From: Selaginella tamariscina
Lineage: Eukaryota; Streptophyta; Lycopodiopsida; Selaginellales; Selaginellaceae
Length of the DNA stretch: 64,000 nt
Assembly: GCA_003024785.1 (NCBI GenBank)
Contig: PUQB01000728.1
Span: forward strand, 1 to 64,000
Reading direction: 5' to 3'
Position numbers and translations under genes: made by a program. This document shows, piece after piece, positions 26,524 through 62,358 of this stretch (position 1 is the stretch's first letter; every line of letters starts with the position of its first letter). The notes under the pieces are model-generated. The model did no database searches. It saw only the letters and a program-made list of their open reading frames with translations, and was not told where the DNA came from.

Positions 26524-26687
26524 TGGCACGTGAAATTTTGTTGTACATTGGTGGGTTACTTCATAAACCTTAAGGTTTATGGGGTTGTTAAGTATATTCT
26601 TTTAGAAAATACAATTTAAAAATAAATAATTTTTTAATCCTTTTTTGAGTTAAAAGTAAAAAAAACATCATTTAATTCTGAATAAAA

Positions 26688-31140: not shown

Positions 31141-31184
<44 letters not shown>

Positions 31185-33696: not shown

Positions 33697-33978
33697 ATGC
33701 CGCCTTTCGTAGTACTGCTGCCGTCATTGTTCACAAGACAGCCATACCCAGAACCGGATCTACCACCCATAACCATGACGGAATTTAAGGAGCTATTACG
33801 GAATCTTAAGTTCATATTTGTAACTTATTTAATTTTCTTTTTGTTTTCGTTTATCTTGCCAATGTATTATGGCGTAAAGGATGCCTTCCTTTCGCACCAA
33901 ATAACTGTTTCAAAATTTCGTGAACAAAGACTAGCACGTTCTAAACATAGTCCTAATCCACCTTCGCCCGTAAAATGA
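33697..33978 (+). CDS. Small single-pass membrane protein family, copy B
   Basis: Open frame of 93 codons, identical to 8,666-8,947 except that residue 37 is Leu instead of Arg. The change also alters the donor-like GTAAGT of the ancestral intron to TTAAGT, so splicing as in the 20.9-kb copy is not possible here. The protein has a proline-rich N-terminus, a hydrophobic span at about 38-58 and a basic FREQRLARSKH tail. I do not recognise it, and it may be a decaying copy. Confidence 0.42.
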   Translation: MPPFVVLLPSLFTRQPYPEPDLPPITMTEFKELLRNLKFIFVTYLIFFLFSFILPMYYGVKDAFLSHQITVSKFREQRLARSKHSPNPPSPVK

Positions 33979-34033
33979 TGTTTCTATTATTGTATCTTAG
34001 AATATACTGCCTAAAAAATACTACACTACTTTG

Positions 34034-35650
34034 ATGTTCTTCATCCTTATGTTGTTCTTCATCTTCTTCTTTGTGGCACTCGTCATTGTGAGACCTTTCA
34101 TATCACACCTAGGCTTACTCAAATTCACATCTCTTTCATCTGAGCCCTCCATACTGTGCTTGAGTCCCTATCCCTCGGATACGTACAGTGTAGGAAAAAG
34201 TACGTAACATAGCACAGACTATAAGCCGTTTTTAGTTCTTTGGTGTCTCGCAACACGCGTAGCCGCTGCCTATGTGATGATGAGAGATATCTATCAAAGC
34301 TAGGGCATGCAACGAGAAGAAGAGCAGATAGGAGCTGATGGTCAGAGTATGTGTACGTGTGTGCGTGTGCGAGATAGAGAGAGAGCATGTAATTAACTGT
34401 CACTTTTCGTGAAACCACGTGTATGTGTGCATGTAGGTAAGTTTCTCATATATAAAAGTATATATTAATTGTATCTTTTGATGTGTTAATGATTATTCCG
34501 TGAGAACGGCCCTAAGGTTTAGGGTGTACATAACACAAGCGGGGCGTCGTTTTCTTTTGTTTCTTTCCAGCTGCGGGGGAGAATATGCTCTAGGAAGGTG
34601 AGTTGGGTTTTTTGGAAGGCTTCACCGTTTTCCTGGTTTATTATTATATTCTTTAATGATATTGAGAGGGAAAGTTTGACACAGGTTTTAACTGTTTAAC
34701 ATTTCTTCAGCAAGTAAGTCCAATAAGTATTTTTACATAATTTTCGTCTTCTGTCTTCGTTACGCTACATAGATGGGACTTTTAATGTGCTGGTGTTCTG
34801 AAGTGTTTTATTTTCATCAATTACAATTGGAATCAATTTCAATCTCCATCCCTCTCTAATAGGTTTGGTGACTCTTAAACCACATTATGAGCTACACAAT
34901 ACTCACGTATATGTGGGTGGATATATATTCTGAGCGTGTGTATCCATGTGATATACAAATATAGGACCCATTCGTAAAATATGGCTGCTGTTTATTTACT
35001 CTTCTCTTTCGAACAAGCATTTCGAGTTGTCTATAACGTAAACCAATGTGTGCATATCCATATATAACTCCACTGTTGTATTGAAAATCTATATGTCTTT
35101 TAGAATTGATGGCACCGCTGCGGGAGAGATTTGTCCAGGAGTCTGTGTTCGAATCCGGAAAGCCATGCAAACCATCAGCCTTCTCAAAAGCAATAATCTC
35201 AACAACGAACAACTGTACAAAGAAGGTGTTAAAAACTCCACAGCGCAATCTCATCTGTGTTGCTGGAGAGGATCGAGAGAGGTACATGCAGATGTGTGTG
35301 TGTGAATACATATTATTGATACGATACGATTTCCCACAGGAAACATTTCTGTTGTTTTGGAGGAGGCAGGAAAACATATGAAGTTGGTACTAACAAGTGT
35401 TGGCTCTCGCCCAACTTTATTTGGGTTTGCTGTGGAGGATAACCTCGCAAAGTTGCATTTCATCTCTTGGAGATGTTCTTGCATTCACCAGGAAGGAACA
35501 TGTCTTATATACAGTATCAAACTATGTGTGCATCAGTCTATGTGTGTATGTACAAGCATTATAATATACACATGTATTACGCATATACATTGTTTTTTTT
35601 ATGTTTGGCCTAAGAAAAAGGAAACGAAAATACTCTTTCAGACGAGGTAA
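34034..35650 (+). other. Exon-like segments of the unrecognised gene block (copy B)
   Basis: Counterpart of 9,003-10,610: hydrophobic MFFILMLFFIFFFVALVIV, a short exon-like piece near 34,570-34,600, the ESGKPCKPSAFSKAIISTT segment (about 35,150-35,215) and EEAGKHMKLVLTSVG (about 35,360-35,405). A deletion of about 33 bp just after the short piece and an extra 9-10 bp near 35,207 distinguish it from copy A. No complete gene model. Confidence 0.35.
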
Positions 35651-35846
35651 ACAATGGTATATCAAAAAAAAGTGCAACACCACAAAATTTACGTAATATT
35701 CCATTTGAGAATTTGTTTATGCTTAAGTACGCTCGGCTAAAAATAAGGTTTCAGCTTCAAAATAAGGCTAAGCTTTAAAATAAGGCCAAGCCAATCGATC
35801 ATGCCACAAGCACAATGTTTCTTCACCAAGGGGCATACGACTGACC

Positions 35847-38800
35847 TGGTAGGCACCACTATGTACAATCTAGAGACCCTCATTGTCATAGTTCTAACCT
35901 GGTGAGTTGATTACCTGGGTAAAGATTGTGGGATATGTGGGATATGTGGGATATGTGGGAAAAAAGACCCAAGCGGACCTCGGTCATCATAACCAGGGCC
36001 CTCTCATAAACACCAATTGGCCCTTTGCCTAGTTGGCATAAGGGAAGAGGGAAAGGTTGTGACACTCACAAGACCACCCGAACCTCCCCCGAGCTGTTCT
36101 AGTCTCCACACGCTGCTCTCCAAGAAAGGCTTCCAATAAATTAATTCTCTCTTAGATCTAGGTATAGCTCCTTAGGAATATTCTAGCTTATACCTTTTGG
36201 GGAATATTCTTTGATTCGTTATATGGGTCATAACAATCCTCCCCCCATTAGCAAGTCCTTGTCCTCAAGGGCAGTATAACTTACTCAATTGGTCCTGTAT
36301 CATTAGCCTCGTACATCCACAAAGAATCTACCCGGGACTCGTTCCTTGTGATTAACTCTCTAACGTGAAACACTGGGTGCACCCTCACTCCTTCTGGCAG
36401 CCGTAGTCGATATGCCACCTTACCGATACGCTCCAGAATCTCATAAGGACCTGAGTACCTGGGAGACAACTTATCATTGCGTCCCTTCCGTAAGGCCACA
36501 ACTGTGTTCCGCCTTACATGTGTGGCAAATACCACTCGGAGATATACATAATCCCCCACCTGGAACTCTCGGAAGCTTCTGTGCTCATTAGCAAACTTGA
36601 TAGCTCGGCTCTGAGCTGCTTGTAAGTTCTTCTTGCACAAACTCTGAATGTTTTCAAGTTCAACACTCAGATCTTTAGCTTCCTCATCCATGTTGCCTTG
36701 AGCCTTCTTACTTGCTAAACCGAGCTCAAAAGCTGTCTTGGGATGTCGTCCAAACATAGCATAGTATGGACTCATTCCAATGCCACTGTGCTGGCTGTTA
36801 TTATAAGCAAACTCGAGTAATGGAATATACTTATCCCACTGACCTTCCTTCTGGTTAATAGTGCACCTTAGCATATCTTCCAGAACTTGGTTCACCCTCT
36901 CTGTTTGCCCATCTGTTTCGGGATGATCTCCACTACACAGCTTAAGCTTCACTTCTATGCACAAAAGCCTCTCCAAAAGCTAGAAGTGAACTTGGAGTCC
37001 CTATCACTTACAATATCATCTGGAAATCCGTGGATAGGAAATACATGTTGTAAATACATCGTAGCCAGCTCGGATGCATTCACATTCTTCCCCAAGGGAA
37101 CTAACTTGACAAACTTTGTCAACCTGTCCACAATGACCCACACCTGTTCATTCTGCCTCTGTGTCCTTGGCAAATGGGTGACAAAGTCCATAGAGATACT
37201 GCCCCATCGCCTGTCTGGAATAGGCAATGGTACTAATAGCCCACCTGGTTTCTCCCTGGGCACCTTTACTTGCTGACACTTGTCACAAGTCCTGCAGTAC
37301 TCTATGATATCAGCTTTCATATTCCTCCAGTAGAACCTCCTCTTGATCAACTCATACGTTTTCCTCCCCCCAAAATGACCAGCCTCCGGGCGATCATGAT
37401 GAAAATATAGTACCTGGTTGATCAAATGGTCCACACGAGGAAGGTACACACGGCCATTGTAGTACAAAACCCCATCCTGAAATGAGAATGGTGGCTCTAG
37501 CTGTCCTCTGAGCTCCTGCACCTCGGCGTCTTGTGCTTGAGCATGTTGAACTACTTGGCTAAACTCACTGACCGTCCTTGTTAATGCATTACATAAGCGT
37601 GTTTGGAATTCTCCCACTACTGTGGCTCTCCTAACGCGTGACAAAGCATCTGCCACCACGTTAGCCTTTCCTGCGCGATGCTCAATAGGAAATTCGCCAA
37701 ACTCCATGAGCTTAACCATCCAGCGAGCTTGCCGAGAGTTTAACTCTTTCTGTGTGAACAGATACACCAAAGGCTTGTGATCTGTAAACACCTTGAAACT
37801 TGCACCATAAAGATAGTGCCTCCAAACTCGTAATGCATTAACAATAGCCAGTAGTTCTTGCTCATACGTTGAGTACCGTTGCTCTGCAGGATTCAAAGTA
37901 CGACTCTCATAAGCAATAGGCCTTCCCTCTTGCATAAGTACAGCTCCAATGGCCACTCCACTTGCATCACACGATACCTCATAAGGCTTAGAGGGATCTG
38001 CAATACATAAAACTGGTGCACGTACCAAAGCTTGTTTCAAAGCTTGGAAACTGCTCTCCTCTGAAGCACTCCATGCAAAGGGAACGTCCTTTCCAGCAAC
38101 CTAGTTAACGGAGAAGCTTTCTTGGCATAATCCTTGACATACCCGGTAATAACCAGCCATGCCCAAGAAACTCCGTAACTCTTGTGCATTGCTAGGAACT
38201 GGCCATTGCTCCACCACTGCCACCTTCTGTGGATCAGTCTTCACTCCACTTGGCGTCACAATGTGACCCAAATACTCCACTTCGCACTGAGCAAATGCAC
38301 ATTTGCTCTTCTTTGCATAGAGCTTGTTCTCCTCAGCAATTGAAGAACTCTCCGCAAATGCTCCACATGCTCCTTCATATTCTTACTGTAAATAAGAATA
38401 TCGTCGAGGAAGATCTCCACAAAGTCATGCAAGTAGTCACCAAACACCTCAGTCATCAACCGAGTGAATGTGGCTGGGGCATTTGTTAAGCCAAATGGCA
38501 TAACAGTGAACTCAAAATGCCCGAAGCTAGTGTTGAAAGCAGTTTTGTAGATATCTGCCTCCTTCACAGCAATCTGATGATACCCGCTACGCAAGTCTAT
38601 CTTGGTGAACACTCTGGCTCCACCGAGATGATCCATGATAGTATCCACACGTGGCATGGGCATCCTGTCCTTCACTGTTTGCTTGTTGAGAGCTCTGTAG
38701 TCTATGCACATCCTCATGGTGCCATCCTTCTTCCTGACAAGCAATACTGGTGCACCAAATGGAGACTTGCTCGGTTGTATGAAGCCATATTCCAATAGCT

Positions 38801-40828
38801 CCATCACTTGTCTCTTAACCTCTTGCTCCTCAGCATGGCTCAGTCGGAACGGCTTACGGTAAATGGCTTTCGTACCCTGTTCCAACACAATCTCATGCTC
38901 CACACCTCTTGCAGGTGGTAAGCCATGAGGTAGCTCAGGAGGGAAGACATCAGCAAATTCCTCAAGGACAACTTGCACAGCAGCTCGCCCAATGTGACAT
39001 TAGAAGAATCTAACTCACGTATATACATCAGAAAGACTTGATCTTCTTTATTACGGAGATATTTCTTCAAAGACATAGTAGAAAGATACTTGTTTGGAGA
39101 CTCAAGCCTTGTTCCAAACCAAGTGTCTTTCACTCCACTGTACTCAAGCTTCACTCGCTTGATGCTCCACTTGATCTCAGGATCCACACGCTCCAGCCAG
39201 CTCATCCCAAGGATGAGGTCCACACGCGCTAGCTCCGCAAGGAAGAAAGTCTCCACCAGCTGAGTTTTGCCAACCGTCAGCTGTAACTCCTCCACACAAG
39301 CATTCCAGCTCTGTGTGACAGTAGCTGAGCCCTCAATCTCGTATTGAGGCACAGTCTTCATGGGCAAGCTGCACTCCTGCACTAACTTTGCTGATACAAA
39401 GTTATCGCTACTTCCGCTATCCAAGAGGATTCGCACTGGACGTTCACCAAGTCGTCCCTCCACCACAATAGCACGTGTGTGTGGCTCCTCCCGTGCCATG
39501 CAGTTTACCTGTCGAGCAAGAACAGACAAAAATTTACCTCGTGGCTTAGAACTATCTCCCTTGTGTTCCTCTCCACGCTCCATCTCCTGAAGCTTCTTAG
39601 GTGTCTCCTTGTCCTTGTCACCATTGAACCCTTGCCCTTGGGCTTGTTCCTCCTTGGACAATTGGCCTTCCAGTGTCCCACCTCTCCACACAGGTGGCAA
39701 CGTTCACTATCAAACACCTTGACAATCTTCTTAGGCCGATTGTCGGTGCGATAAGAACTAGAAGCTACCAGCTTGGACTTCGGCCTAGCACGATGGCTAT
39801 TCCCTCTATACTCCTGGTGCTCACGAGGACTTGGAGAGGTGCTCCTACCACGCTTCTTGCCATGTCGCTCATTCTCCTTAAACACCTTATCCTCCTCATT
39901 TAGCAAGCGAGCATATTCGAACAGCTCCTCTAAAGTCTTGGACTGAATCACCGAGTTAAGATGTCTACGCAAGTTAGCACTTCGCAGCCCATCTACAAAA
40001 TAATCCTTCTGCTGGTTGACAGACACGTCAGGTACACGGCAAAGTAATTGACTCAATTTCTCAATGTAATCGTCCAAGGTCATCTTCCCTTGCTCTAAAT
40101 GTCGCAATTCACGCCTTGCATGAGACACATCGAACCGAGGAGCATACTCCTTCTTAAATAGCTCAGAGAACTCCTCCCAAGTTGCAATCATCTCCTGGTG
40201 AGCTAACTGGCGCTGATTTCGAATGCGTGTCCACCACCTCGCAGCTTTATCCTTCAAGGCTACTGATACAGCTATCATAGCCTGCTCGGTAGTCACTCCC
40301 TGTGCAGTGAGCAAGTTCGCTGCTATCTCAAGCCAACTCATAGCCTCATCCGGATTCTTTACCGGTAAAAGGTGGAACGCGAAGACGATCTAGCACCCTG
40401 CTCTTACCAGTCACGGTTCCTTGAGCAAGTTGATCTTCAATAGTATCCAACCGCTCACGAATCACCTCCAAGGAACCAGTCACGTACTCTTGAAATTGCT
40501 TGGAATCCTTGCCATAGCGTATATTCGAGCACGATTTCCTGGTTCGTCCACTCCTCATTGGTGTTGTCTCTCCTTCCACCGGTCACTCATCTCGAACCTC
40601 CTCCGATACCAAATTGTTAGGCACCTCTACGTACAATCTAGAGACCCTCACAAATACCACCCGACCTCCCCCGAGCTGTCTCTAGTCTCCACACGCTGCT
40701 CTCCAAGAAAGGCTTCCAATAATAGTGTGCCCTTAATCTCTCTTAGATCTAGGTATAGCTCCTTAGGAATATTCTAGCTTATACCTTTCTGGGGAATATT
40801 CTTTGATTCATTATATGGGTTCATAACA
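35847..40828 (-). mobile_element. Ty3/gypsy LTR retroelement (copy B), broken
   Basis: This is the same insertion as 10,822-15,595, flanked by the same TGACC duplications (35,842-35,846 and 40,829-40,833), so it was carried along in the duplication. On the minus strand it has gag with a CCHC knuckle (CHLCGEVGHWKANC, about 39.7 kb), protease (about 39.4 kb), reverse transcriptase (about 38.3-38.9 kb), RNase H (about 37.8-38.0 kb), integrase with its HHCC region and catalytic core (about 36.9-37.5 kb) and a C-terminal part near 36.3-36.9 kb. It is better preserved than copy A, with about four or five breaks. LTRs are at 35,847-36,235 (interrupted) and 40,615-40,828. It is small for a gypsy element, and no chromodomain is seen. 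Confidence 0.9.
35884..36064. mobile_element. Solo-LTR-like insertion inside the 3' LTR of copy B
   Basis: 181 bp absent from copy A. It starts TGTCATAG and ends TTGTGACA, so it has TG...CA ends with TGTCA/TGACA inverted termini. It is flanked by CTCAT and CTCAC, and the uninterrupted LTR in copy A has CTCAC once. It contains three GATATGTGG units in tandem. These are the marks of a solo LTR of another, unidentified element, although a small non-autonomous element is also possible. Confidence 0.65.
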
Positions 40829-46982: not shown

Positions 46983-47396
46983 GGGGCACGGCGAAATTCG
47001 AGCGCAGGTCAACGAGCTTGACCTAGATTTCCGAATATTCTTGAATATTCCGTTGTTCCGTACGATTTCCGTCTAGATATCCTTGAATATTCTGTACAGA
47101 AATTTTTCGTACTGCCAAGTGTACACACAATTGGACCTTCCAAAATTTTCAAGAATATTCTAGAATATTCTAGTGCGGCGGCCGCATACAAAATATGGTG
47201 TATATTTTTGTTGTATTTAAAGAAATATATATGTAAATTACTTAAAAATATGCTAAGCATAAAATTACCATTAAAATTTATATTGAAAATTATAAGTTTG
47301 AAATAACAAATATAAAACCGAAGCTGTTTGAAAACAAACCAAACACACTAAATAGATGGTGGAGGATAGAGGTTCCTTGGTAGCATCAATAAAGAA
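46983..47396. other. Breakpoint-side segment, non-coding
   Basis: Begins abruptly with ggggcacggcgaaattcg at the end of copy B. It contains the HSE-like arrays, then GTGCGGCGGCCGCA at 47,173-47,186, then AT-rich DNA up to the MULE gene. It may be the 3' end of the MULE, but no terminal inverted repeat partner could be found by eye. Confidence 0.4.
47033..47170. promoter_or_regulatory. Cluster of perfect heat-shock-element-like arrays
   Basis: GAATATTC occurs at 47,033-47,040, 47,043-47,050, 47,085-47,092, 47,153-47,160 and 47,163-47,170. The first pair reads GAA-nn-TTC-nn-GAA-nn-TTC. The last pair, together with a TTC two bases upstream of it, gives five alternating units with exact 2-bp spacing. 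This fits the eukaryotic heat-shock factor consensus of alternating GAA and TTC units. It lies just right of the duplication breakpoint and on the 3' side of the MULE gene. Whether it drives any transcript is unknown. Confidence 0.6.
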
Positions 47397-47397
47397 C

Positions 47398-50300
47398 TTA
47401 GTTCACGGGGTGCAAGTGTACGACGTTGCAAATCTTGACAACTCGAGGATCAGCTCCCAGTACACGCTTGTAAACAAAATACATATGTTTGCAAGGCACC
47501 CACTGACGACCATTGCAGAACTCCAAGCATGAACAAGATGGTGCGCTACAAATGACAACCCAAGCAGATGTATGGTCGTTGTCACATACTCTGAAGCGAA
47601 TGCATGTTGGAGGATCAACCACATCAACTTCTGTGACATATGCTCCCAACGTCAAACATGCTTCAAAACTTACCTGTTGTTTCTTAGACATCCCTGAAGG
47701 TGTTCTTGTTGCACGACCACTTGCAGGAATAGGAGGTCCACGAAATTGTGCAGGGGGTGTTGAAAATCCAGTGACTCCAACAGGAACTGAAGGAACATGA
47801 GGTGTTGAAAAACCTGGCACTCCTGCATGAGCTGAAGGAAGCCCAGCTAGCATAAAACCTGATCTTGCCAGATCATTGATCTCCATTGCTATCAGCTTCG
47901 TGCCCACTTGAACTTTCCAAACCGAGGTAGAAGCTGGCGGAGAAACAATAGTTGGTCTTGGATGTCTATTGCAAAGCATGTTTGTTGGACAAAAATACAT
48001 CATTTGTGAGCGAAAGCATTCTTCACCAGTTTCTTTGTCATTGTATCTGATCCTTCCAAAAAAACAAGGAGCAGCCACTCGATTACCACTAGGACTGATC
48101 TTTTTGTCACAAGCACTCCACTGACCTCCTGAAGAGGGAAAGCCTGCCAGACATTTCACAGAACTTCTTTCACCACATCTTCTAATCGCCCATTGTCCAG
48201 GTGTAACATCTTGTTCTTCAACCAGAACATATCTTCATGTTCTTCTGCAAGTTGAAAATCCAATCGTCGCTTCCGTCTACACTGTGTTGGAATAACCTGT
48301 TCACTATAGAAGATGTCCGGTCGGTGGGATCGTTCAGCCTCTGACCCCATATTTCTTTGCATAGTGCGATGTTCAACATTCGTGGCAGCCACAAAAGCAG
48401 TATCCTACATGCTTGATGGAGCAACATCTTCAACTAAGTCGATGATAACCTTTGCTGTAGGTGTTGTTGAGTTAGCATTTGACATTCTTCTCTCGAACCT
48501 TGCTGAGAGCTCCTCTGAAGTCGGCCCGGAACCACTATACCTTCCATCTCTAAAAGCCTTCACAAGAGCACATTGTCGCACTGATTCAGTCAGGTCGTGG
48601 ATTGTAGCTTGGTACAATGAAATGTATTTTGAATCTCTAGCCCTCCTCCATCTTCCGTGAACAGACTCCGACTGGTTGTCATGGGCACAACCCTTGCAGC
48701 ATTCTCCGGCATGCTTTCAAGAACAACATTTGAAATATGATTCTTCTGTCTTTCCCACCATGAAAACCACGTCTGCATAACTCCAACATCCTTCACATTT
48801 TCATTCCAAAAGCGGAAAAGATTATTTTCAATTTCTTCACGATCAGTTGTTGATGTGGCTGTTGGCCATGATCTCAAAAGTTGAAGATGTTGTTGTTGAT
48901 GTTCAAGAGGGACCCACTTCCTTGTCACACGTTGTATGGCTTGTTCATAGTGAAAGATACAGCTCCGTTCACGTCCAGGAATTTCTTGGCCATTAAAGAA
49001 CACATTCCTAATTGCTTGCCAGATCGCTCCTGCTTCATCGGACATAAACCCAGCGAACTGCACATTGTAGATTCCCTTCTCGGAACAGACATCCAACATA
49101 GCACGAAAAAACTTCTCCACAGCTCCAGCCGTTTGTCTCTTCATGTCACCATAAGCAATGGTGGATAATCGGCGCACACTATAAAATAATCAAAGAGTTA
49201 AGCAAACAACAAAAAGATAACATCTTACTTTGGGTCGTAAACATGCAATGCCAGAGTGATCCACTTATCAACAACACGGTGTGTGTGATCAAGTAGAACC
49301 CAACTCTTCTGCAAAGGGCCAAGAGGAGGTTGGCACATCCTTACATAATCGATTCCAGAACCTGGCCCTGAAACCGTCATCTTAAAAACTAATGCCTGGT
49401 CGTCTGAACCACGAAAATTCATCCCAGGATAGTGAATCACGTGGATGAATGGGATAGACAACCTTCGTTTCAGCTCCAATAATCCATCAATATTCTCTGG
49501 CATTTCAGCAGTAGTTCTCTTTGCGGACGCTACCCATTGACGAACTCTGCATCAAAGGTATTATCAAAGAATGCTCAGCACAAAGTAAAACTCTAATTGT
49601 ACCTTCGATTGTTTGATAATGGTTGCAAATGATTCATGAGCTTATCCCAACTTCCAGGCTCAGAATTATCTAATAGGAAACCAAAGATAGCATCTTTACA
49701 TGCTGCCATTTCGATGACTCTTGGACTAGCTCTGGGAGTTCTTTCTGTTGCATTCTGGACCGCCATATGCATTTCTTCTTTGTTCGATGCAGAAACACCA
49801 TCACCCACTGGATGTGAATGTTTTCCCTGGTGGATAAACAATCTAGTCTTGGTTATGTCGTCTGGGAAAACGCAAAACGCCACAGCATGACAAACTTCAA
49901 GGCACAATGGATTTTCTTTACAGAAAAAACATGTTAATCCTTTTGCCAGTTTGTCGATTGAAGGTGGGGAAACAATACATCCTTTCCATTTAGTGCAGTT
50001 CGGAAATCTTGCCTTAGAAGCAGGGCAGTCCGGGTTGATACAGCAAAGGCTCCCAACACATTTGCTCCTGGACACCCTCGCTTGAAAATTCCAGTTGCTG
50101 GTCGTTCCTGCTGTCCAGGTATGTCCATCCTCTTTCCGATTCATTCCTTTGTATTTGTATTCGGAAGGAGGGAGCTCAAAAATGACATCCCCATCATACG
50201 CAACAGGCAATTCATTTGTATGAATGATCGTGGAACCCTCGATAAGAATTCTTCCCTTTTTGCAGGTATTAGAAGTGAAAAGGTTCCTCAATGTTGAGTA

Positions 50301-50460
50301 TTCAGAGTCAGAAGCAACGACAAGCTTAAACAATGGTCGTTCATCCGGTAACAAAACATATCCTGGATTATCCTTCCCTCCAACATCTTGGTCCTCGTTT
50401 ATTTCGATCTCTAAAGCAGATTGCCCATGAAGAAGTTTAAAAAGACGAACACTTTGTCAA
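47398..50460 (-). mobile_element. MULE (Mutator-like) transposase gene with GCM1-type and SWIM zinc fingers
   Basis: The minus-strand exon 1 (about 50,460-49,603) carries a WRKY-GCM1-like finger (RSKCVGSLCCINPDCPASK ... HSHP). A 56-bp intron (49,547-49,602) follows, then exon 2 (49,229-49,546, with LDHTHRVVDKW for the first acidic residue), a 50-bp intron (49,179-49,228), and exon 3 with FMSDEAGAIWQAIRNVF (second Asp) and CIFHYEQAI. Further on are NQSESVHGRWRRARD and, near 47,490-47,540, the SWIM finger CSCLEFCNGRQWVPCKH. This is the standard order of MULE transposases, which cut and paste DNA in the nucleus. There are frame changes near 48,690 and 48,158 and an in-frame TAG at 48,405, so this copy looks inactive. 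The start codon and terminal repeats were not found. Confidence 0.8.
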
Positions 50461-51080
50461 TCAAAAATGCCAAAGAACGTTCTAATCTGATTAGTAAGAA
50501 TGATTCCAACACCATCTATTACAGGAACATCGTGATCCAAATTGCCGTAAACAATCCTAGCCATTTTGCAAGCAGTTACCACAAACGTGACAGAAAAACA
50601 ACAGCATTACTTAATCATCTTTTGGTAAATATCGGATATTACCATTTCAAAATTCACAATCATGACTCAATGTGGGCGAATATTTAATTCAAGGAAACGT
50701 ATAGATCTTAGATGCTAATATAGTATAGCACTTCACGTAGAGATAGAGCAATCTTTATTGTCTTTTAAATAAATGTGTGTCTAATCTACATTCATCTGAC
50801 ATATTATTTATGACTTGTTTATATTCTGTTAATTTATTAATTATAATATATAGTTATTTGATCCAGTATTTTATCAAATGTAGACATTATAAATACATAT
50901 TTACACGAATATTTATTAATATATAATAATACGTTTTTTTAACATACAAATTTTTACTTAAATATGTGTTTGTATTTGTATCCTTTTATATAGTATGTTA
51001 TTTATCGCAAGTTTATATATACTGTTGTATGGTTTAATTAAACACAGTTTTATAGTTAAGGGTCAAAAGGTTAAGTGTTA
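50461..51080. other. Spacer, AT-rich, no gene seen
   Basis: Lies between the divergent MULE and methyltransferase genes. One short open frame at 50,421-50,687 overlaps the MULE 5' region and has no recognisable motif. The rest is AT-rich. Confidence 0.5.
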
Positions 51081-51083
51081 GAT

Positions 51084-51208
51084 TTTAGGGTAAAGGTTTA
51101 GGGCTGCCCATTCTTCTTCTCCATTCTCCATTGTTGAGAGAGGGCACTTTTGTTCTTTTTTTTGTGGCGACAAGAGGCTAATGTGAGCGTCACGGCGACA
51201 TGGCTACA
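51084..51208 (+). promoter_or_regulatory. Probable promoter/leader of the ParB-methyltransferase gene with two telo-box units
   Basis: TTTAGGG occurs at 51,084-51,090 and 51,097-51,103, followed by a pyrimidine-rich leader (TTCTTCTTCTCC). An ATG at 51,200 is followed after ten bases by a GTAAAA donor-like site, and the acceptor TTGTAATTGCAG lies at 52,022-52,033. Splicing these would place the upstream ATG in front of a quick stop (Met-Ala-Thr-Glu-stop). So this is likely a 5' leader exon with a short upstream frame, and the main start is 52,035. Inferred, not shown. Confidence 0.35.
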
Positions 51209-51289
51209 GGTAAAATCTTATTATATGTTTATAGTAATTTTTGTACATGTATGTGCAAATTCAGTAGGATTTCTTTGTATTCACAAACG

Positions 51290-51669
51290 CACGCGCGTGT
51301 GCACACACACACACACCTCCCACGCATGAGTTATTGCCGATTTCGGCAAACACACACACACACACACACACGGATTTTCCTGCCCGAATTGGGTAGGAAA
51401 TCCTGCCGCCAGGATGGTGCGGCGGCCGCACCATCTGAACGGCAGGATTCCTGCCCAATTCGGGCAGGAAAATCCGTGTGTGTGGTGTGTGTGTGTGTGT
51501 GTGTTGGTTTTTGCGCACACACATAAATAACATTTTACACACGTACCACATTATGATTATACAACATTAGACTTGTATACATGTGTGTATATATAAATAT
51601 ATATATTTAAATACATACTTAAAAAGACTTATATATATATATATATTATAATATAATATATATATAATA

Positions 51670-51708
<39 letters not shown>

Positions 51709-52030
51709 AAGTATATGAATTTAAGACTTGATATATAAGATGATGCTTTTTCGTCTGTATATACATGTGAAGAGATGAATATACCCATATTCTCTCACAC
51801 AGACACATCACAAAACACAAACAACATTGCACACACACACACATAATCAACATTACACACATACACAAGGAACATTATATAGTGAGCACACACACAAACA
51901 ACATTACACGTATAAATATGTGTGTGTGTGCGTGTGTGTCTATATATATTGATAGGTATACATATATAGTAAATGTGTGTCCATAAATTAAAACAACTCA
52001 CACACACACACTTATCAGTTGTTGTAATTG
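51290..52030. repeat. Microsatellite cluster (CA/TG and TA)
   Basis: Several (ca)n, (tg)n and (ta)n tracts lie here, the longest TA tract around 51,670-51,705 and repeated acacac/acattac units at 51,820-51,910. If the leader model is right, all lie in a 5' UTR intron of the downstream gene. Confidence 0.85.
51371..51476. repeat. Nested palindrome centred on CGGCGGCCG
   Basis: The arms 51,371-51,422 and 51,426-51,476 are nearly perfect reverse complements (CGGATTTTCCTGCCCGAATT ... in both). Each arm contains a smaller palindrome (CCTGCCC...GGGCAGG type). CA repeats on the left and TG repeats on the right lengthen the arms by about 20 bp or more. It could extrude as a cruciform or be a foldback/MITE-like element. 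Confidence 0.85.
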
Positions 52031-52034
52031 CAGA

Positions 52035-55000
52035 ATGAGACAAAGGCAGAGTAAGAGACTGCGAGATAAATACAAGACTTTGACACTTCAGGAACATATC
52101 GTCCAAGAAGCTCTTGCAGATATGGCTCCAAAACCTCGTGGCAAGAAAGGAGGCCGAGGTGCCAAGCAACAACTGCAACACGAAGAGATGATGCCGACGA
52201 ACAATGAACCTATGGATAGTTCGCAAGTTATTGATGAACATACTATGGTGAGTGAATGGATGCCTAGAAATAGGGAGATCGCAGGAAGCTCTGCAGAACA
52301 CGGTAATGCAGAGGAAGTACCGGACATTGATCTTGGTAGTAAAATGTTCAATAAGAAGAGGAAACTGGATGCTCCTGAGGATGTTGCCGAATCATATGCA
52401 ATTCCGGAGCGGCTGACACTTGAGGCTCCATCCAAGCTTCTTCGGGATCTTGTTTATTCGGTATGACACGGATATTGACACATCGCTACAAGGACGAGAC
52501 CACTACGTTCCAGTTGAGCTTGGTGAGCCCCGCGTATCCCGGTTCACAGGTTGCTCCCACACCAACGTTTGAGGAATGTCACTAAGGACGGCGTGAAAGA
52601 CCTTGTTGGATGGATTAGAGCTGAAGGATTTTACCAGGAAACGTCAGTGTTCACCTTATCTTTCGGACCACAGCTGAGTGCAGACGAACGCCGAAGTTGG
52701 AATGAGTCAGAAGCACAGGTCGATAGAGAGTTTGAAGCGGATTTGCATAAGCCAGCATTTTCTGCGTGGTATCGATTTCTGAAAGATGCAAAGTTTCTGG
52801 TGTGGGATGGGAATCATCGTCGGGTTGCTTTGAACACTTTGCTTGCTGAAGAGCCAGGTTTGAAATGGACTTTGCGTGTACGTGCAACACTCATAGCATC
52901 CACAGTGCAAGAGGAGAAGAGACTAATCGCTGCTTGCAATTGGTTGAATGAGTAAGTGACTTGTTTGTTTCATTATTTAAATACTAAATAAATGTTGTTT
53001 TGTTTTGCAGAGCAACTGCTCGTGTGGTTCCTACAACAATCATTCACACCTTGCAGTTCTTACGGAATTGTTGTGTGAAGTCTGCAGATCTTTCTACCGA
53101 TCATGTTCTTCGCGGGATGCCGGAGGAAGATAGAAAAGCTGTGGAAGTGTGGAGATCGAATAGAAAAGAAGACGTTTGGTACGAGTATCCAAAGATGACA
53201 TTGGTGAAGATTTTTTGGGAGGTAATCTTTTCTTCTTCTTTTGACTGTTTTTTGATTTTTCTGTTTCTTTTGCAGAATCAACTGAAGCGACAAATCGCTA
53301 CAAAACTTGCGAACAGAAAACCAAACCAGACAGAATCTCAGATCCTCTCCAGCATTTATAAGACATTCACAGTTCGGATGAACAAATTCCTCACCATTGC
53401 TGATCCGGCGGCCGGTGAAGATTGGTTGAAGGCGATCACAGATATCACTATCAAACCATCAACAAAGCAAATAACTCTGGAGAAGCTTCAAATGCTCGCG
53501 AAGTCCCAGCTTCCTTCCAACGTCAAGGTTGATATCCTTGGGAAGCTTGTGCACATTCAAGAACGTGGCGTTCTTGAGAAGCTGGTGAACATGACGGAGA
53601 AAGACAAGAAGGAAGGTGTCACCGGCTGGCCTGACAAGGACTTCATCAAGTTTTGCACATCTTTACTTACTGGTTCCAGGTAATTTAATATTTATATTTT
53701 TCATTTTTATTCGTTTTATCATGCCAAGTCGCGGAGGCAGCTAAAGAGCTTTTGGTCGAGCATGTAGAGGAGTTCATGGCATGGTATACGAAGATGCACA
53801 ATGAGATTAAGTTGGATATGTACCAGAACATGCTCGAGAACAAGGAGTTCGGTGCGACAATTCCACCTCCTCGACTATTTGAGCTAGAAAAATCTGCAAA
53901 AAGAATGGCATTCAGGCAAGTTTTTTTTTTTGTTTCTTTACAGATTTTATCTATTTTTACAGGTTTTTAAAATGGAAAAACGATGCACTCCCTGAAGATT
54001 TCAAAGAGTGGATGGATGTTACCAAGGATTCTAGCATGTGGAGCCGGTTGTTACGTGATATCAGTGATTACGAAGTGGAACACTGTCCTTTCTGGCTGGA
54101 TTTCCTTCCTGGTGACTGCCCGAATGGGAGATGGCCAGCTATAAGATACACAAGGATGATCGCGCGAGAGCTATTATGGAAGAACGACAGTGCTGCAAGG
54201 AAGCTCCATGTGAAGATGGATATCAGGTATGCTAGATCGGCGAGCAAGGTCAGCAAGGGACAAGCTTCTTCTTCAGCCCCATCCTTCATCTCGGCGGATT
54301 GGAAGAAGATGATATGTTGAGGATGGTGATGCCTGAGAAGGGAAATGGAAGCTGGGAAATCATTCATGCAGATTCAGAGAACCTTGCAGTCCAGTACTTC
54401 AAAGCTGGAAGGCCTTTTCCGTCAGGATTGAAGGAGCTTGAGGATTGGATCGTGAGTCACAAGTCAAGTTGGACTATTCATGTGTTTGGTGCGAAGCCTC
54501 CACCAAAATGCATCCAGGAGCTGTTGATCTCGTTGTCATCGACCCACCTACCGGATGTGTTGCTGAGGCAGGCGGGATGGTGGATCAATACACGAAGTTC
54601 TCGGATGCTTTGCTGAAGAACTTGGTGAATCTTGCTTTCGGGATATTAGACAGAGCTGGCCATGTGGTTAGTGTTTGTGCTACCGGATGATGTTCTAGCT
54701 TTGAAGAACACTGCAGAAACTTGCAAGCTAAAGTTTCTGCAGATGAGTTATGTGCACACGACAAAGTCATGGGATACCGTTTCTCTAGAAAGGTAATTCT
54801 TCTTTTTGAGAATGTCATTTTTTAATGTTTATTTTTTCAGGAAAGCATCATTGCCATGTGTATTTTTGGTTCCCCCTACTCTAAGGTTGCCAAGAACAAA
54901 GAGATCTTGGACACTCGCTTACACTCTTCTTTTTGATGAGCCAGAAGATTTCCAGCTCCCATGGTATAATGTTGTTTGTTATTTCTCATGTTCTAATATT

Positions 55001-55987
55001 GTAACTTTCAGGATTTCAATTGGCCCGAAATCTCCCAAGTTGTTTGCGATGCTAGTGGAGAAGCTCACAAAGCCTGGTGGAACTGTCGTGGATCTAACAA
55101 TGGGAACCGGTGCTAGTATTCTTGCAGCTTTTCACACAGGGAGACATGGTTATGGAATCGACATCAACAAGGATCTGGTTTTAGCAGCCAGAGATGTCTT
55201 CAGGAAGGTCATTCCAAGTGTTACAGCAGCTGAAGGTGGTGGGGATGATCAAGTGTTTCCAGTTACTCCTTTTTGATGAGTGGAAGAGGGCCATGGAAAC
55301 AAAGCACAGGATTGTGCCTTTGGCAGCGACAACGATGGAGACCAGGATCCGCCTTCTCGAAACGACAAGGATGTTGTTAAGAGAAGTCCGTGGAGCACAA
55401 CGACGAGTCACAGATGAGTCAGCAGAAGAGAGATCATACGAGTCATCAGATGATGAGTGAGATTTGTTTTTATCATTTCTTTGGTTTTAAACTTTAATAT
55501 GTTTTCAGTATTGTTCTACCAGACTACGCTAATCAGATGGCAAAGAAAATGGTTGAAGAGTTCGAAGTTTACGACAGACAGATTTTGGGAGAAACGTTCN
55601 NNNNNNNNNNNNNNNNNNNNNNNNNNNNNNNNNNNNNNNNNNNNNNNNNNNNNNNNNNNNNNNNNNNNNNNNNNNNNNNNNNNNNNNNNNNNNNNNNNNN
55701 NNNNNNNNNNNNNNNNNNNNNNNNNNNNNNNNNNNNNNNNNNNNNNNNNNNNNNNNNNNNNNNNNNNNNNNNNNNNNNNNNNNNNNNNNNNNNNNNNNNN
55801 NNNNNNNNNNNNNNNNNNNNNNNNNNNNNNNNNNNNNNNNNNNNNNNNNNNNNNNNNNNNNNNNNNNNNNNNNNNNNNNNNNNNNNNNNNNNNNNNNNNN
55901 NNNNNNNNNNNNNNNNNNNNNNNNNNNNNNNNTCGAGGAAATGTCAAACCCCAGCTGAAGTATGGGTTTGTATATAGAATGTCCTGA
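52035..55987 (+). CDS. ParB/Srx-like domain plus beta-class DNA amino-methyltransferase, spliced plant gene (possibly decayed)
   Basis: From ATG 52,035 the first about 140 residues are basic and disordered, with NKKRKLD as a nuclear-localisation-like cluster. The ParB-like part (about 52,560-52,951) has LLPHQRLRNVTKDG and FLVWDGNHRRVALN, the ParB/sulfiredoxin-fold signature. An unrecognised helical region follows. The methyltransferase comes last: DLVVIDPPTG (motif IV) at about 54,530, then GPKSPKLF and VVDLTMGTGASILAAF (motif I) at about 55,020-55,130. Motif IV before motif I means the permuted class that methylates adenine N6 or cytosine N4. Introns of 47-59 bp lie at 52,952-53,010, 53,222-53,275, 53,680-53,728, 53,916-53,962 (GC-AG), 54,227-54,276, 54,793-54,840, 54,964-55,011 and 55,457-55,508. 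About four or five frame discontinuities are not explained by introns, and a gap cuts the last part. The architecture is like bacterial and phage ParB-methyltransferases, so old transfer is likely. Confidence 0.72.
53916..53962 (+). other. GC-AG intron of the ParB-methyltransferase gene
   Basis: CAG|GCAAGT donor and TTTTTACAG acceptor. Removal joins GCATTCAG to GTTTTTAAAATGG and continues the frame as AFRFLKWKND. The donor otherwise matches the U1 consensus perfectly, as expected for GC-AG introns. Confidence 0.65.
55600..55932. other. Assembly gap (333 N)
   Basis: A run of N inside the 3' part of the ParB-methyltransferase gene. The reading frame enters at GETF and a frame leaves it as RGNVKPQLKYGFVYRMS before TGA 55,985-55,987. 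Confidence 0.99.
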
Positions 55988-57034: not shown

Positions 57035-58545
57035 TGGTTGTTTCTGGTGGCATGTGCAATGAATGAGTGACATTGTGTGGCGACTTCGTGGTGACAGAGA
57101 TGCATTTGATTGGCTCGTTGCTTGGGTTAGGCACTGCCTACGGGCCTGTGCTGAAAGGTCAGAGGACTGAAGACCCCGAGTGACATGTTGCGGGTTTGGT
57201 TGGCTTGCCTAGAAGGAGTTATGCAATTTGCTGGTTCAGGCACTTGCGTATGTGTATGCGGATGGTCGTGCTCCTGGCGACGTTGGTTTTTCTGTGATGT
57301 TGTTGTTCTGGTGGCATGCGCACCTGATTAGCTCGTTGCTTGGGTTAGGCACCGCCTACGGGCCTGTGCTGAAAGGTCAGAGGACTGAAGACCCGAGTGA
57401 CATGTTGCTGGCACTTGCGTATGTGTATGTGGATGGTCGTGTTCCTGGCGACGTTGGTTGTTCCTTGTGTGGCACTTGCGGTGAATGGGCAAAGCTGTGT
57501 GGCAAATTCGTATGCACTTGATTGGCTCACTGATTCGGGTTAGGCACCGCCTACGGGCCTGTGCTGAATGGTCAGAGACTGAAGACCCGAACACGTGTTG
57601 CTGGTTGGGTGTCCAGAAGGAGTTATACACTTTGTTAGTTCAGGCATTTGCGTTTTGCGTTTCATTGCCTCTTGCTGGTTGTAGTAGTGGCATCTTTTTG
57701 AGTCGGCTTCCCGGGACTTGAGCTACTAGTGGAAGTGCGGCTCCCAGCAGTTGAGCTTGAACATGGTAAGGAAGATCTGCAATGGAAGGTTGATCGTGTA
57801 AAATACCGGAGTTTTTATTTGAGGTGGTAAGGACCACCGTTTATGGCTTGTCGGCGTGTGCGTTGAGCCTAGTACACCCCGAGCGTGAGGCTCCATGCTT
57901 GGAAACGAGTATGGTTATTCTGGTACGGTGTTTACTCCTCTTTGATGTGGTTGTTGTGGAAGCTACTTTGGGCATCTGCTGCAGATTGGTTTGACCTCGT
58001 GTGTTTGTGCATTTGGTTGTTGCTTGTGGTGTGCTTTACGGTGTTACTCCTCTTTTGATGGGCATTTACTATACAGTTTGCTAGGGATTGCTCTAAGGTT
58101 TAATGGGTATCTTCTAAGAGGGCAACTGCAACGATAGTTCTTGTTTACGAAGAGGTTTGGTGTGTTTGCAATAAGTGGTCATTCTGATGCATATTGGGCA
58201 TATCCTTGAGCATTTGTTGTGTGATCTTGGTGGATGTGTATGTGGTATGCTATAGTGGTTGTCATGGAGTTACTTTGGGCATCTGCTGCGATTGGTTTGG
58301 CCTCGTTTGTTTGTGATTGCTTTTTTCTTTGGTGTGTGCTTGTGAGCTGTGGTTTGGAGATTAAAGCTCGAGACAGTATCCGGGCGAGAACTAGACCCGT
58401 AAAGGTCTGAATCGATTACTTTCTTCTTCGAACACTCAGCAATGCTTGGGTTTAGAGGGATGGGAATAAGAGTAGGTTTATATAAAATCCGTTGGGATGT
58501 TTTTATGTACACTTGTATTTAGCCCCATGAATAAACTTTAAACAT
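57035..58545. repeat. Left arm of a large inverted repeat
   Basis: Starts near ggttgtttctggtggcatg and runs through the ~200-bp tandem units, the phrase caccccgagcgtgaggctcc (about 57,876) and atgtacacttgtatttagcc (about 58,505). It matches 61,130-62,358 reversed, with a somewhat different number of internal units. No gene is seen. Confidence 0.85.
57105..57600. repeat. Tandem repeat with a period of about 200 bp, three units
   Basis: The core ggttaggcaccgcctacggg followed by cctgtgctgaaaggtcagag appears near 57,125, 57,340 and 57,540. The reversed form is found in the right arm near 61,890, 62,085 and 62,270. Confidence 0.85.
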
Positions 58546-58645
58546 TCCTTCCAACAAGCCGCCCAGCTCATAAACTTTAAACATTCCTTCCAACAAGCCG
58601 CCCAGCTCAAACTTTAAACATTCCTTCCAACAAGCCGCCCAGCTC
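58528..58645. repeat. Three tandem ~40-bp units next to the left arm
   Basis: The phrase aactttaaacattccttcc followed by aacaagccgcccagctc occurs three times in a row. The last unit runs directly into the tRNA-Lys-like sequence, whose first seven bases GCCGCCC are part of the unit. Confidence 0.85.
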
Positions 58646-58695
58646 AGCACAAGGCTCTTAACTTTGTGGTCGTGGGTTCGATCCCCACGGGCGGC
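58634..58695 (+). ncRNA. tRNA-Lys(CUU)-like sequence with degenerate D arm
   Basis: Acceptor strands GCCGCCC and GGGCGGC pair. The anticodon arm is CAAGG-CTCTTAA-CTTTG with anticodon CTT, and the T arm is GTGGG-TTCGATC-CCCAC, an intact internal B box. The D arm is reduced to AGCTCAG with the second half missing, so the length is only 62 nt. It is more likely a tRNA-derived repeat head (SINE-like) or pseudo-tRNA than a working tRNA. Confidence 0.6.
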
Positions 58696-60580
58696 GGTAG
58701 TGGATTGTGGATGTACCTCACAAATCTATATCAACCAAATCCAGGTATGCACCTGCACAACACTTAAAATATTTACGTGCATATGACCGTAGAATTCCCT
58801 GGGATCAACCGTCAAACTTCTTGTCACCCACCAAGCGCTTCATATCTTTGTTGTCCTTCCATAGCCACTCTTTTGGTTGCGTGAGTTGCATGTCGCCGCT
58901 CTTTCACAACACAGTCGAAGGACCGACAGTGAGAATTAGAAGCAATGGTCCGCCCTGTGTTCCCAGTAGGTTAGACCCACTATAATAGGAGAGCGAATCC
59001 TGCGGGTGGGAATCTTTCCAGGAGCAAACAATCAACCTCGACTGAGATTTCCTGCCGGTTGGGGCGATGAGACCTGGTATAGAAAAGCATGGTTTCATGA
59101 TGCAACCTGGAGAACATCGAGACTTTTTTTTGACTCAAAAAGTCCTTGCAAACAACGGTGGCCAGCGCCTTTTTGGTCCAGCTCGAATTCTGCAGGGCAG
59201 GCTTCCTCAAAGTCGTGATCCCAAGAGAATGGAACAAAAACGATTCCAGAGAATAAGCCAGGAGCTACTTGCCGTTAATGAGTTTTGAGCCTGAGGTTCA
59301 TTGTACTTACCCCATTTAAATATAAGTTTAGGGCTACAGTGAATGTGTTTCGATGGACAACAGCGGCCCAAACTTCGATTACGTGGTTCTGGGCGGCGTA
59401 AAAGATTCTAGAGAATATGGTTACTAATTGAAGATCGGTTCAAGGCTCTTAACCTTGTGGTCATGGGTTCGATCCCCACGGGCGGTGTATTGTGTTTTTG
59501 ACTTTGCAAACAGATGGTCAACGCCTTTGGTCTTCAGTCAGCTCGAATTCTGCAGGGCCGTCTTCGAAGTCTTGATCTTCAGCACGATCCTCCTCTTCTG
59601 GGATGCCCAGAGATGGAACAAAGTCTGCTTCGGCTTCAAGCGCTGTCAATGCAACCATGCTGACCGTGGGGAGCCTCCACGCCTTGAGCTCGCCCGAATG
59701 GAAGGCCCTGGGCAGCTCAAAGAGGGCGACCCATTTGCTGGTGTCGATCATGGATGATGAGAATGAAAACTCGCGGATTACGCAAACCCAACATTCCAAT
59801 GCTCCACATCTTGGAGCACTTGGCGAGCGAAGTCAGCTTGTATGTTCTGTCTTGAGTGCCCTTGCTCGGAATCAGCTTCCCAGACCACCACTTCGTGTAC
59901 ATGCAACTTGAAATCACGATCGAAACCATGCAAGATCGAATTGGAGCGATCTATACTAGTAACTAGATTCTATAGATCTGAATCATGTACCTTTCATGGA
60001 GATGGCAGAGTCGTCGATTTCCAGTGGAACATGAAGTCGAGCCAGATGGAGTCCCATCGCAGTGCTCTACACCGATTTCTTGCGCCAGGATGGAATCCAC
60101 GTCGGGGAAACCGTCTTGCCTGAGTGGTGGAAGAAGTCGATCGCTGTGGGGAGCTGGAGGATCACCGCCGAATTCCGCTGCAATGCTGCGATTGAAAGAA
60201 TGCCAGTTCCAGCTCGATAAAAGAAGCGCCGCTTGGGGATGGATGGATTGTTCTTCCTCAAAGCAATGAGAAGCTGGCCATTGATCGGAATTTGGATCGT
60301 GGAAGAAGCAGGAAGCACAGCGCAAAGGAACTTGCTTGTCATTAGCGAGACAGGGGTATATGCGACGAATATCCAAAAGGAGTGTGAAAGATTCTAGAGA
60401 ATATGTCACGACCATATTTGCCGTTAACGAGTTTCGAGCCTGAGACCTATCGAGCCGAATATGCTTTGCAGACTTCCCCATTATATTTATCCCATAAGCA
60501 TTAGTTTGGCCAAACTGGTACCATTTAAATATACTTTTAGGACTACAACAAATGTGTTTGGTAAATTATCATTTTCCATT
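58696..60580. repeat. Two related, unequal repeat units starting at the tRNA-Lys-like heads
   Basis: Unit 1 (about 58,634-59,360) and unit 2 (about 59,441-60,570) share, in order, the tRNA-like head, the phrase AGCTCGAATTCTGCAGGGC (about 59,179 and 59,538), TTGCCGTTAA (about 59,270 and 60,408) and a CATTTAAATATA tail with GAATGTGTTT/AAATGTGTTT. Unit 2 has about 400 bp more. Open frames on the minus strand (59,518-59,799; 60,067-60,342) have protein-like composition but no motif that I know, and none is complete. Confidence 0.5.
59441..59486 (+). ncRNA. 3' half of a tRNA-Lys(CUU)-like sequence
   Basis: CAAGG-CTCTTAA-CCTTG anticodon arm and ATGGG-TTCGATC-CCCAC T arm, followed by GGGCGG. The 5' half is not tRNA-like. 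It resembles 58,655-58,695 and begins the second of two related units. Confidence 0.6.
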
Positions 60581-61129
60581 AACTACATATTTTACTTAAA
60601 ATTTGGAGGCTGAACTAAGTGAGGATTTTGCTGATCGCTACTTAAAACGTCATTTTACTTAAGTGGATCTTCACACTGCACGTTTATGGTTAAATAAATT
60701 CATGTTATCTTCACAACCTCTTTTTAAGTAGTGACCTGATCTTTGAGGTTTTCATTTATTTTCTTTCATTTCATTGGGGAGGAGGTGCATCTATTGGGGG
60801 AACATTTCCTTGGTGCAATGCCAGCCTTTCATATTGGATACAAATTTGTTTTGTGCAGGTGTTTGAGGTTGTGTAATAAAAGTGCTAGGCAGCCATTTGT
60901 GCACGAGTTTTGCATACCTGCCTCAATCTACTTAAGAGGAAAGTAGGCAATTTATGACCAAACAAAAACAAACTACACTCAAAACTAATGAAATGCTTAC
61001 AGGTAATAGCTCATGTCTCCATGCTAATTGTAAAGATTATGAGTTATTTTTTGCCTTTCACATGACTTAAACCCGAAACCTTTTAGCTAACACACACATG
61101 TATTAGCCAACTGGTCCATATGAAGGAAT
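60581..61129. other. Unassigned spacer
   Basis: AT-rich sequence inside the inverted-repeat spacer. A short frame at 60,743-60,946 is the only open one and has no recognisable motif. Confidence 0.5.
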
Positions 61130-62358
61130 GTTTAAAATTTATTCATGGGGCTAAATACAAGTGTACATAAAACCTACTTTTATTCCCATCCCCCTAAACC
61201 CAAGCATCGCTAAGTGTCTGAAGAAGAAAGTAATCGATTCAGACCTTTACGGGTCTAGTCTTTCGCCCGGATACTGTCTCGAGCTTCAATCTCCAAACCA
61301 CATCTCACAAGCACACACCAAAGCAAAAAGTAAACACAAACAAACGAGGCCAAACCAATCTGCAGCAGATGCCCAAAGTAGCTCCATGACAACCACTATA
61401 GCATACCACATACACATCCACCAAGATCAAACATTCAAATGCCCAAGGATATGCCCAATACGCATCAGAATGATCACTTATTGCAAACACACCAAACCTC
61501 TTCGTAAACAAGAACCATCGTTGCCGTTGCCCTCTTAGAAGATACCCAATAGACCTTAGAGCAATCCCCTGCAAACTGTATAGCAAATGCCCATCAAAGA
61601 GGAGTAACACCGTACCAGAATAGCCATACTCGTTTCCAAGCATGGGAGCCTCACGCTCGGGGTGTACTAGGCTCAACGCACACGCCGACAAGCCATAAAT
61701 GGTGGTCCTTACCACCTCAAACATGGAGCCGCACTTCCACTAGTAGCTCAAGTCTCGGGAAGCCGACTCCAAAAGATGCCACTACTGCAACCAGCAGAAG
61801 GTAATGAAGCGCAAAATGCAAATGCCTGAACCAACAAAGTGTATAACTCCTTCTAGACACCCAACCAGCAACACGTATTCGGGTCTTCAGTCCCTGACCA
61901 TTTAGCACAGGCTTGTAGGCGGTGCCTAACCCGAGCAGTGAGCCAATCAAGTGCATACGAATTTGCCACACAGCTTTGCCCATTCACCGCAAGTGCCACA
62001 AAGAACAACCAACGTCGCCAGGAACACGACCAACCACATACACATACGCAAGTGCCAGCAACATGTCACTCGGGGTCTTCAGTCCTCTGACCTTTCAACA
62101 CAGGCCCGTAGGCGGCGCTAACCCAAGCAACGAGCTAATCAAGTGCGCATGCCACCAGAAACAACTAGCAGAAACAACTAGCATCACAGAAACAACCAAC
62201 GTCGCCAAGAACACGACCATCCACATACACATACGCAAGTGCCAGCAACATGTCACTCGGGTCTTTAGTCCTCTGACCTTTTAGCACAGGCCCATAGGCA
62301 GTGCCTAACCAAGCAACAAGCTAATCAAGTGCGCATGCCACCAGAAACAACCAACTAG
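61130..62358. repeat. Right arm of the large inverted repeat
   Basis: Reverse complement of much of 57,035-58,545, including aagtgtacataaaacc (start), gcctcacgctcggggtgtac (about 61,650) and three copies of the reversed ~200-bp core. It ends near ccaccagaaacaaccaac at 62,355. Confidence 0.85.

Follow-up and report, generated by a model that had tools for sequence, protein, structure and literature searches.

A Mutator-like transposon family of Selaginella tamariscina carries a ParB-like/amino-methyltransferase gene and palindrome arrays at its ends

We analyzed a stretch of 64,000 nucleotides (the window) from Selaginella tamariscina (assembly GCA_003024785.1, contig PUQB01000728.1, positions 1 to 64,000 of the forward strand). 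An initial annotation of the window had described a spliced gene encoding a ParB-like domain fused to a DNA amino-methyltransferase, and had inferred that it was acquired by transfer. The gene itself is real, but it was found to be the second gene, at 52035 to 55.6 kb, of a 9-kb Mutator-like DNA transposon (MULE, Mutator-like element) at 46983-55951, which is present in many copies and had been missed. Since the gene sits within a repeated element, a lone transferred gene was rejected. The element ends at 55951 and not at 55987 as first proposed, while the plant origin of the genome agrees with 26 chlorophyll a/b-binding matches. The features of the window copy, which belongs to a family termed A, are as follows.

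46983 to 55951, no strand: family A MULE-like transposon, window copy; broken, with a 333-N gap inside; ends taken from comparison with copies of differing flanks
46983 to 47180, no strand: left terminal repeat region; GAATATTC palindromes at five positions, 47033, 47043, 47085, 47153 and 47163
47348 to 50564, minus strand: MULE-like transposase gene, its two introns at 49602-49547 and at 49228-49179; reading frame disrupted in the window copy
52035 to 52951, plus strand: exon 1 of the ParB-like/methyltransferase gene; ATG at 52035, basic N-terminal linker with KKRK at 52353-52364, ParB-like domain with WDGNHR at 52803-52820
53011 to 53221, plus strand: exon 2
53276 to 53679, plus strand: exon 3; the next intron has AA as its acceptor in the window copy
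53728 to 53915, plus strand: exon 4; the intron after it is GC-AG
53963 to 54792, plus strand: exon 5, motif IV half of the methyltransferase; DPPTG at 54541-54555
54841 to 54963, plus strand: exon 6
55012 to 55456, plus strand: exon 7, with motif X (PKS; GPKSPK at 55022-55039) and motif I (VVDLTMGTG at 55085-55111), then an acidic tail
55509 to 55599, plus strand: exon 8, cut short by the N gap
55933 to 55951, no strand: right terminus remnant of 19 bp; the rest of the right terminus of the window copy lies mostly inside the N gap

The sequence motifs named in the initial annotation (the ATG, KKRK, WDGNHR, DPPTG, GPKSPK and VVDLTMGTG) were all present at the positions given there. The introns are spliceosomal as had been proposed, but seven and not eight were found, separating eight exons and measuring 59, 53, 48, 48, 48, 48, and 51 bp in copy L011. 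In open copies intron 4 is GC-AG and the other six are GT-AG; the acceptor of intron 3 is AA in the window copy, whose protein stops after 143 residues in this gene model. An uninterrupted frame was found in 7 of 20 fetched copies, with a length of 1092 residues in six and 1091 in one. These 20 copies were selected from near-identical matches and mostly have a long open exon 1; they are neither a random sample nor a source of an unbiased rate. The proposal that the window copy is decayed while intact relatives exist therefore stands for the broken window copy and its open relatives, with the reservation that assembly indels may account for some of the breaks. A gene decayed throughout the family was rejected as a reading, since 7 of the 20 chosen copies are open.

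The terminal repeats enclose two divergent genes, one transposase-like and one encoding the ParB-like/amino-methyltransferase protein. Imperfect terminal inverted repeats were found at both family A ends; the outer sequences of the window copy read GGGGCACGG.. on the left and ..GAGGAAATGTCAAACCC on the right, and its gap of 333 N (55600-55932) cuts the last exon. Most of the 20 fetched family A copies have about 8.9 kb in common, with sharp ends and differing flanks; L010 and L020 are rearranged or partly deleted and L013 contains an N run. A 9-bp target duplication was found in 11 of the 17 copies with both ends readable, L010, L021, L022, and the window copy being left out of this count because one end was unreadable. 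Within the 11, the duplications of L011 and L019 need a one-base boundary shift and that of L024 is a CT repeat. The remaining six readable copies (L009, L013, L014, L016, L017, and L025) had no 9-bp target duplication, and no matching duplication was seen for the window copy. The available text of a MULE survey gives a range of 8-11 bp for MULE target duplications (PMC6446971). The window copy and a copy on C550 (L013/L035) were found to have the same left flank and different right flanks, which may reflect haplotype duplication or mis-joined contigs; L017 and L018 likewise have one left flank in common.

In the transposase-like gene of copy L026 we identified D407, D474, CxxH at 500, and E598, spaced D-66-D, D-25-CxxH, and D-123-E, and a SWIM-like CxC..CxH C-terminus was seen in L011. 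The D, D, CxxH, E arrangement with a SWIM-like end is the pattern of MULE transposases. In L015, L023, and L026 no stop interrupts the transposase frame as far as the fetched sequence reaches, the frame ends being set from lengths.

The genome searched comprises 300,702,823 bases in 1391 contigs, and the accessible parts of two sources describe the published assembly as 300.73 Mb built with PacBio/Falcon (PMC8558194, PMC10095996). The ParB-like exon had at least 151 matches in this genome. At least 58 of equal score were 99% identical over residues 2-142 without a stop, and represent near-identical family A copies. In a comparison with L026 over 3.65 kb, from which L020 and the window copy were left out, 11 of 18 copies had no substitution, which points to a recent burst of copying in family A. 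Small indels were common, and most copies differed more by small indels than by substitutions. With a PacBio/Falcon assembly, this pattern suggests that part of the frame breaks may be assembly indels.

The initial annotation had proposed a methyltransferase with motif IV upstream of motif I, and profile searches bore this out. The Pfam model N6_N4_Mtase (PF01555, cut-off 26.7 bits) matched the motif-I exon with an E-value (E) of 1.2e-6 and 29.1 bits, and the spliced protein of an open family A copy with E 3.8e-8 and 34.0 bits. In two sister families, termed B and C, the same model gave E 4.5e-10 (40.3 bits) and E 5.7e-10 (39.9 bits), respectively. In the PHROGs collection residues 640-1023 matched phrog_67 with E 7.6e-11. 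For comparison with phage ParB-methylases, we took eight phage regions in which a ParB match coincides with an annotated methylase; seven were aligned and one (L062) was left out because its annotated methylase was short. A profile of the three families matched these seven enzymes from motif IV to motif I with a probability of 94.6% and E 7e-8. The motifs follow in the order IV, X, I (DPPT at residue 768, PKS at 897, motif I at 917) and are collinear with those of the seven phage enzymes. The predicted methyltransferase fold is thus well supported.

No close relative was found in the phages, plasmids, and viral contigs scanned. Exon 7 alone matched 50 phage records at E 0.01 or better (6e-5 to 9e-3 among the 20 listed), with each match confined to the motif-I stretch and none spanning 80% of the query; a PDB search gave MboIIA with E 0.017. 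The whole methyltransferase region had no phage or plasmid match at E 0.01. For the ParB-like part no plasmid matched and the three phage records obtained were at chance level (E 0.9 or worse), and three viral-contig scans confirmed no relative. The proposed acquisition by transfer was therefore not borne out in scans of phages, plasmids, and viral contigs, in which bacterial chromosomes were not scanned.

The assignment of the N-terminal part to ParB is probable, and is based on the WDGNHR motif, a register collinear with phage ParB parts, and a DndB match. WDGNHR, a candidate for the conserved G-x-x-R nucleotide motif of the ParB/Srx superfamily, forms the longest stretch without any change among the three families. 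The initial annotation had taken it for a ParB/Srx signature, and it fits ParB together with the predicted strand-helix order, but profile evidence is weak: the DndB match of the family A exon (E 0.0011) lies below the Pfam cut-off, so that comparison of exon translations with domain profiles placed the methyltransferase exon above the cut-off and the ParB-like exon below it. One partly available source counts DndB among the enzymes of the ParB superfamily, at one point with the word "formerly" (PMC10853773). When the collinear register with the phage ParB parts was set against column shuffles, 1 of 200 shuffles reached the observed profile score for the first half of the domain, compared to 35 of 200 for the second half, which contains WDGNHR.

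A genome search for PF01555 gave 739 first-look candidates, of which 150 were scored, all above the cut-off; many of the 150 fall on exons of family B. The motif-I exon of this family had at least 106 full-length matches at 99-100% identity among the 151 matches listed. Families B (L051) and C (L052) carry the same two divergent genes as family A, and one copy of B has the 9-bp target duplication TCTGAAGAA, read by eye. The second C copy, L053, contains only the ParB-methyltransferase side in the fetched stretch. L052 repeats part of its 3' end in inverted form at 7490-7910, where a second motif-I exon lies in the opposite orientation.

Introns 1, 2, 4, 5, and 6 of family A are common to B and C in position and phase, whereas introns 3 and 7 were found in A only. 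Protein identity is 27% between A and B, 28% between A and C, and 55% between B and C. Across five segments the proportion of synonymous differences (pS) between B and C was 0.72-0.88, compared to 0.19-0.34 for nonsynonymous differences (pN). These proportions are given because synonymous saturation made the ratio of nonsynonymous to synonymous rates (dN/dS) mostly not computable. That pS greatly exceeds pN argues that the protein is under selection. Of the five segments, the half with the S-adenosylmethionine (SAM) site is the best conserved (B-C identity 73%) and the motif IV half the least (49%). As judged from these comparisons, the gene is an ancient part of the element under purifying selection.

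Motif IV is DPPT in family A and DLPN in B and C, compared to DPPY in all seven aligned phage fusions; D768 and P770 are invariant across the three families. The doubt that the initial annotation had raised over DPPT was thus justified. Because motif IV is remodelled, it is uncertain whether the predicted enzyme methylates bases.

Palindrome arrays were found at the fetched termini of all three families, and this is new here. Copy L014 (8902 bp) has eight GAATATTC palindromes, all within its outer 190 bp, while among 2000 dinucleotide shuffles of the two 200-bp termini the mean was 0.024 and no shuffle had more than 2. Arrays of GAATATTC are present in all termini fetched, namely both ends of A and B and one end of C. 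The termini of B and C otherwise differ, yet contain the same box, and no GAATATTC was found in the fetched interiors of L051 and L052. Genome-wide, the pair GAATATTC-NN-GAATATTC occurs at 722 sites, compared to 2 for a composition-matched control. The looser form GAANNTTCNNGAANNTTC occurs at 769 sites, compared to 55 for the reversed and 15 for the matched control, and 722 of the 769 have TA inside both boxes. All these counts represent copies of a few families and not independent events.

Cytosine-C5 methyltransferases occur inside eukaryotic retrotransposons, so that elements carrying their own DNA methyltransferase are known; these belong to another methyltransferase class and another transposon class than the present case. 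DNA amino-methylation in plants is disputed. Among eukaryotic amino-methyltransferases, N4CMT of bdelloid rotifers is a host gene. As described in the accessible text of its paper, N4CMT writes N4-methylcytosine (4mC), is of bacterial origin and, like the protein predicted here, is a bacterial-type amino-methyltransferase in a eukaryotic nucleus, but it has a chromodomain and the gene described here belongs to a transposon; ParB is not mentioned in that text (PMC8885841). Fusions of ParB with N6_N4 methyltransferases have been described in phages and prophages, according to the main text of a PNAS 2025 survey, in which the stems "plant" and "transpos" are absent (PMC12704722). The phage proteins likewise have an N-terminal ParB-like part and a C-terminal amino-methyltransferase with motif IV before I, but they are 411-437 residues long compared to 1092 in A, lack the middle region of about 300 residues, have an intact DPPY, and are intronless.

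MULEs with extra genes are known from the available part of PMC6446971. Elements with accessory genes (mudrB, VANDAL VANC, and KIU) resemble the present one in having a second gene beside the transposase, and the 9-bp duplications lie within the MULE range. VANDAL elements also have repeated short motifs in non-coding parts, as far as the sources cover them. The difference is that the accessory protein here is ParB-like with a methyltransferase. The words ParB and methyltransferase are absent from the accessible text of the MULE survey (PMC6446971) and of a 2026 gene-capture review (PMC13317346), and the combination of a MULE with a ParB-methyltransferase was not found in searches of the open-licence literature of PubMed Central, outside of which lie preprints and most subscription journals. 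The gene would thus represent a new kind of accessory protein for MULEs. An abundant, recently active plant transposon lineage has kept, under selection and over a deep divergence, a protein of a bacterial and phage amino-methylating family together with a candidate cis target.

We consider it about an even chance (probability roughly 0.5) that the ParB-like/methyltransferase protein is a transposon-borne SAM-dependent factor acting on the palindrome-bearing ends of its own element, in a lineage that is probably autonomous and recently active. The protein would enter the nucleus by means of its basic linker, and its ParB-like part, which may bind DNA or nucleotides, would recognize the GAATATTC boxes at the ends of the element. 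The SAM-binding methyltransferase fold would then act at these ends, where either the DNA is modified, to N6-methyladenine (6mA) or 4mC, or host silencing is displaced, leaving the ends active for transcription and transposition. The narrower proposal, that the element carries its own bacterial-style amino-methyltransferase, guided by the ParB-like part to the terminal palindromes, and that a 6mA or 4mC self-mark controls transposition or escape from silencing, we regard as doubtful.

Several observations weigh against a SAM-dependent factor acting at the element ends. The catalytic motif (D/N/S)PP(Y/F/W) was found in none of A, B, and C, with the largest departure in B and C. Support for the ParB part is less strong than for the methyltransferase fold and comes from short stretches: in a profile comparison the whole ParB-like part was not significantly similar to phage ParB parts (probability 2%), the ParB parts did not align when the three-family profile was run against the seven phage enzymes, and Pfam gave no match for this part in B or C. 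Structure prediction, which had been suggested as a check, gave AlphaFold models of low confidence (pLDDT, the predicted local distance difference test, of 46 and 36) that were not used, and Foldseek found no match at E 0.001 for the model with pLDDT 46. As for the transposase, no Pfam transposase model, PF10551 included, matched at E up to 10, and no complete transposase was found among 14 modelled frames, 11 of which have internal stops. Family B is represented by one nearly full locus and three short ones, and family C by two loci. The link between protein and palindromes is inferred, and a host factor or the transposase could instead recognize the palindromes. The window also contains GAATATTC pairs, spaced by 26-27 bp (10965/10992, 15537/15563, 36176/36202, and 40767/40794), that flank gypsy coding sequence.

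The last observation favors a host factor as reader; the pairs beside the gypsy element lie in repeated stretches on both sides of its coding sequence. That a host factor, for example a heat-shock factor, or the transposase recognizes the palindromes while the ParB-methyltransferase acts elsewhere, for instance on replicating or excised element DNA, is possible but rather unlikely. The pair GAATATTC-NN-GAATATTC fits the nGAAnnTTCnnGAAn form, and a heat-shock element is likewise matched by tandem GAAnnTTC. Such an element does not, however, require TA inside the boxes, which is found in both boxes of nearly all GAANNTTCNNGAANNTTC sites, with the reservation made above on what these counts represent. 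Alternatively, the protein may be a pseudo-enzyme that methylates no base but binds SAM and DNA and serves in anti-silencing or transposition, comparable to the VANC proteins of VANDAL MULEs in Arabidopsis, and this we regard as a tentative option that falls short of probable. It would explain the replacement of DPPY by DPPT or DLPN and the low conservation of the motif IV half, and the accessible text of PMC10398659 describes VANC proteins as binding tandem repeats of short motifs in non-coding regions of VANDAL elements. On the other hand, the SAM-site half is the best conserved and D768 and P770 are invariant, as would be expected with some catalysis.

An enzyme that methylates RNA, for example the transcripts of the element, or protein instead of DNA would also be compatible with the altered motif IV. 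The SAM site weakly matches RNA and protein methyltransferase models, and the top NCBIfam hit is a corrinoid-protein-associated methyltransferase, with E 0.0015 and 18 bits, far below the cut-off of 180. We consider such a substrate improbable, as DNA methyltransferases rank first in both Pfam and PHROGs and the match to the phage fusions spans motif IV to motif I. A passenger gene captured as in Pack-MULEs, or a transferred gene that has decayed and plays no part in the element, would agree with the broken window copy and with the tendency of MULEs to acquire host gene fragments noted in the accessible part of PMC6446971. It is contradicted by the presence of the same gene, with five common introns, in three families that are 27-55% identical, and by purifying selection between B and C; this explanation is very improbable and was rejected on the common introns and the pS and pN values.

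With respect to the GAATATTC pairs beside the gypsy coding sequence, they are perhaps a host-read promoter element that is also common to the MULE termini. The Ty3/gypsy-like coding sequence is held in a near-identical direct duplication of about 15 kb (window positions 1-15242 and 25000-40472, spacing about 25 kb), which is either a segmental duplication or assembly redundancy. To the right of the transposon, a large imperfect palindrome was found at 57131-62310, with arms of about 1.1-1.35 kb, pieces that are 85-100% complementary, and 2.7-4.9 kb between them; it possibly represents another element.

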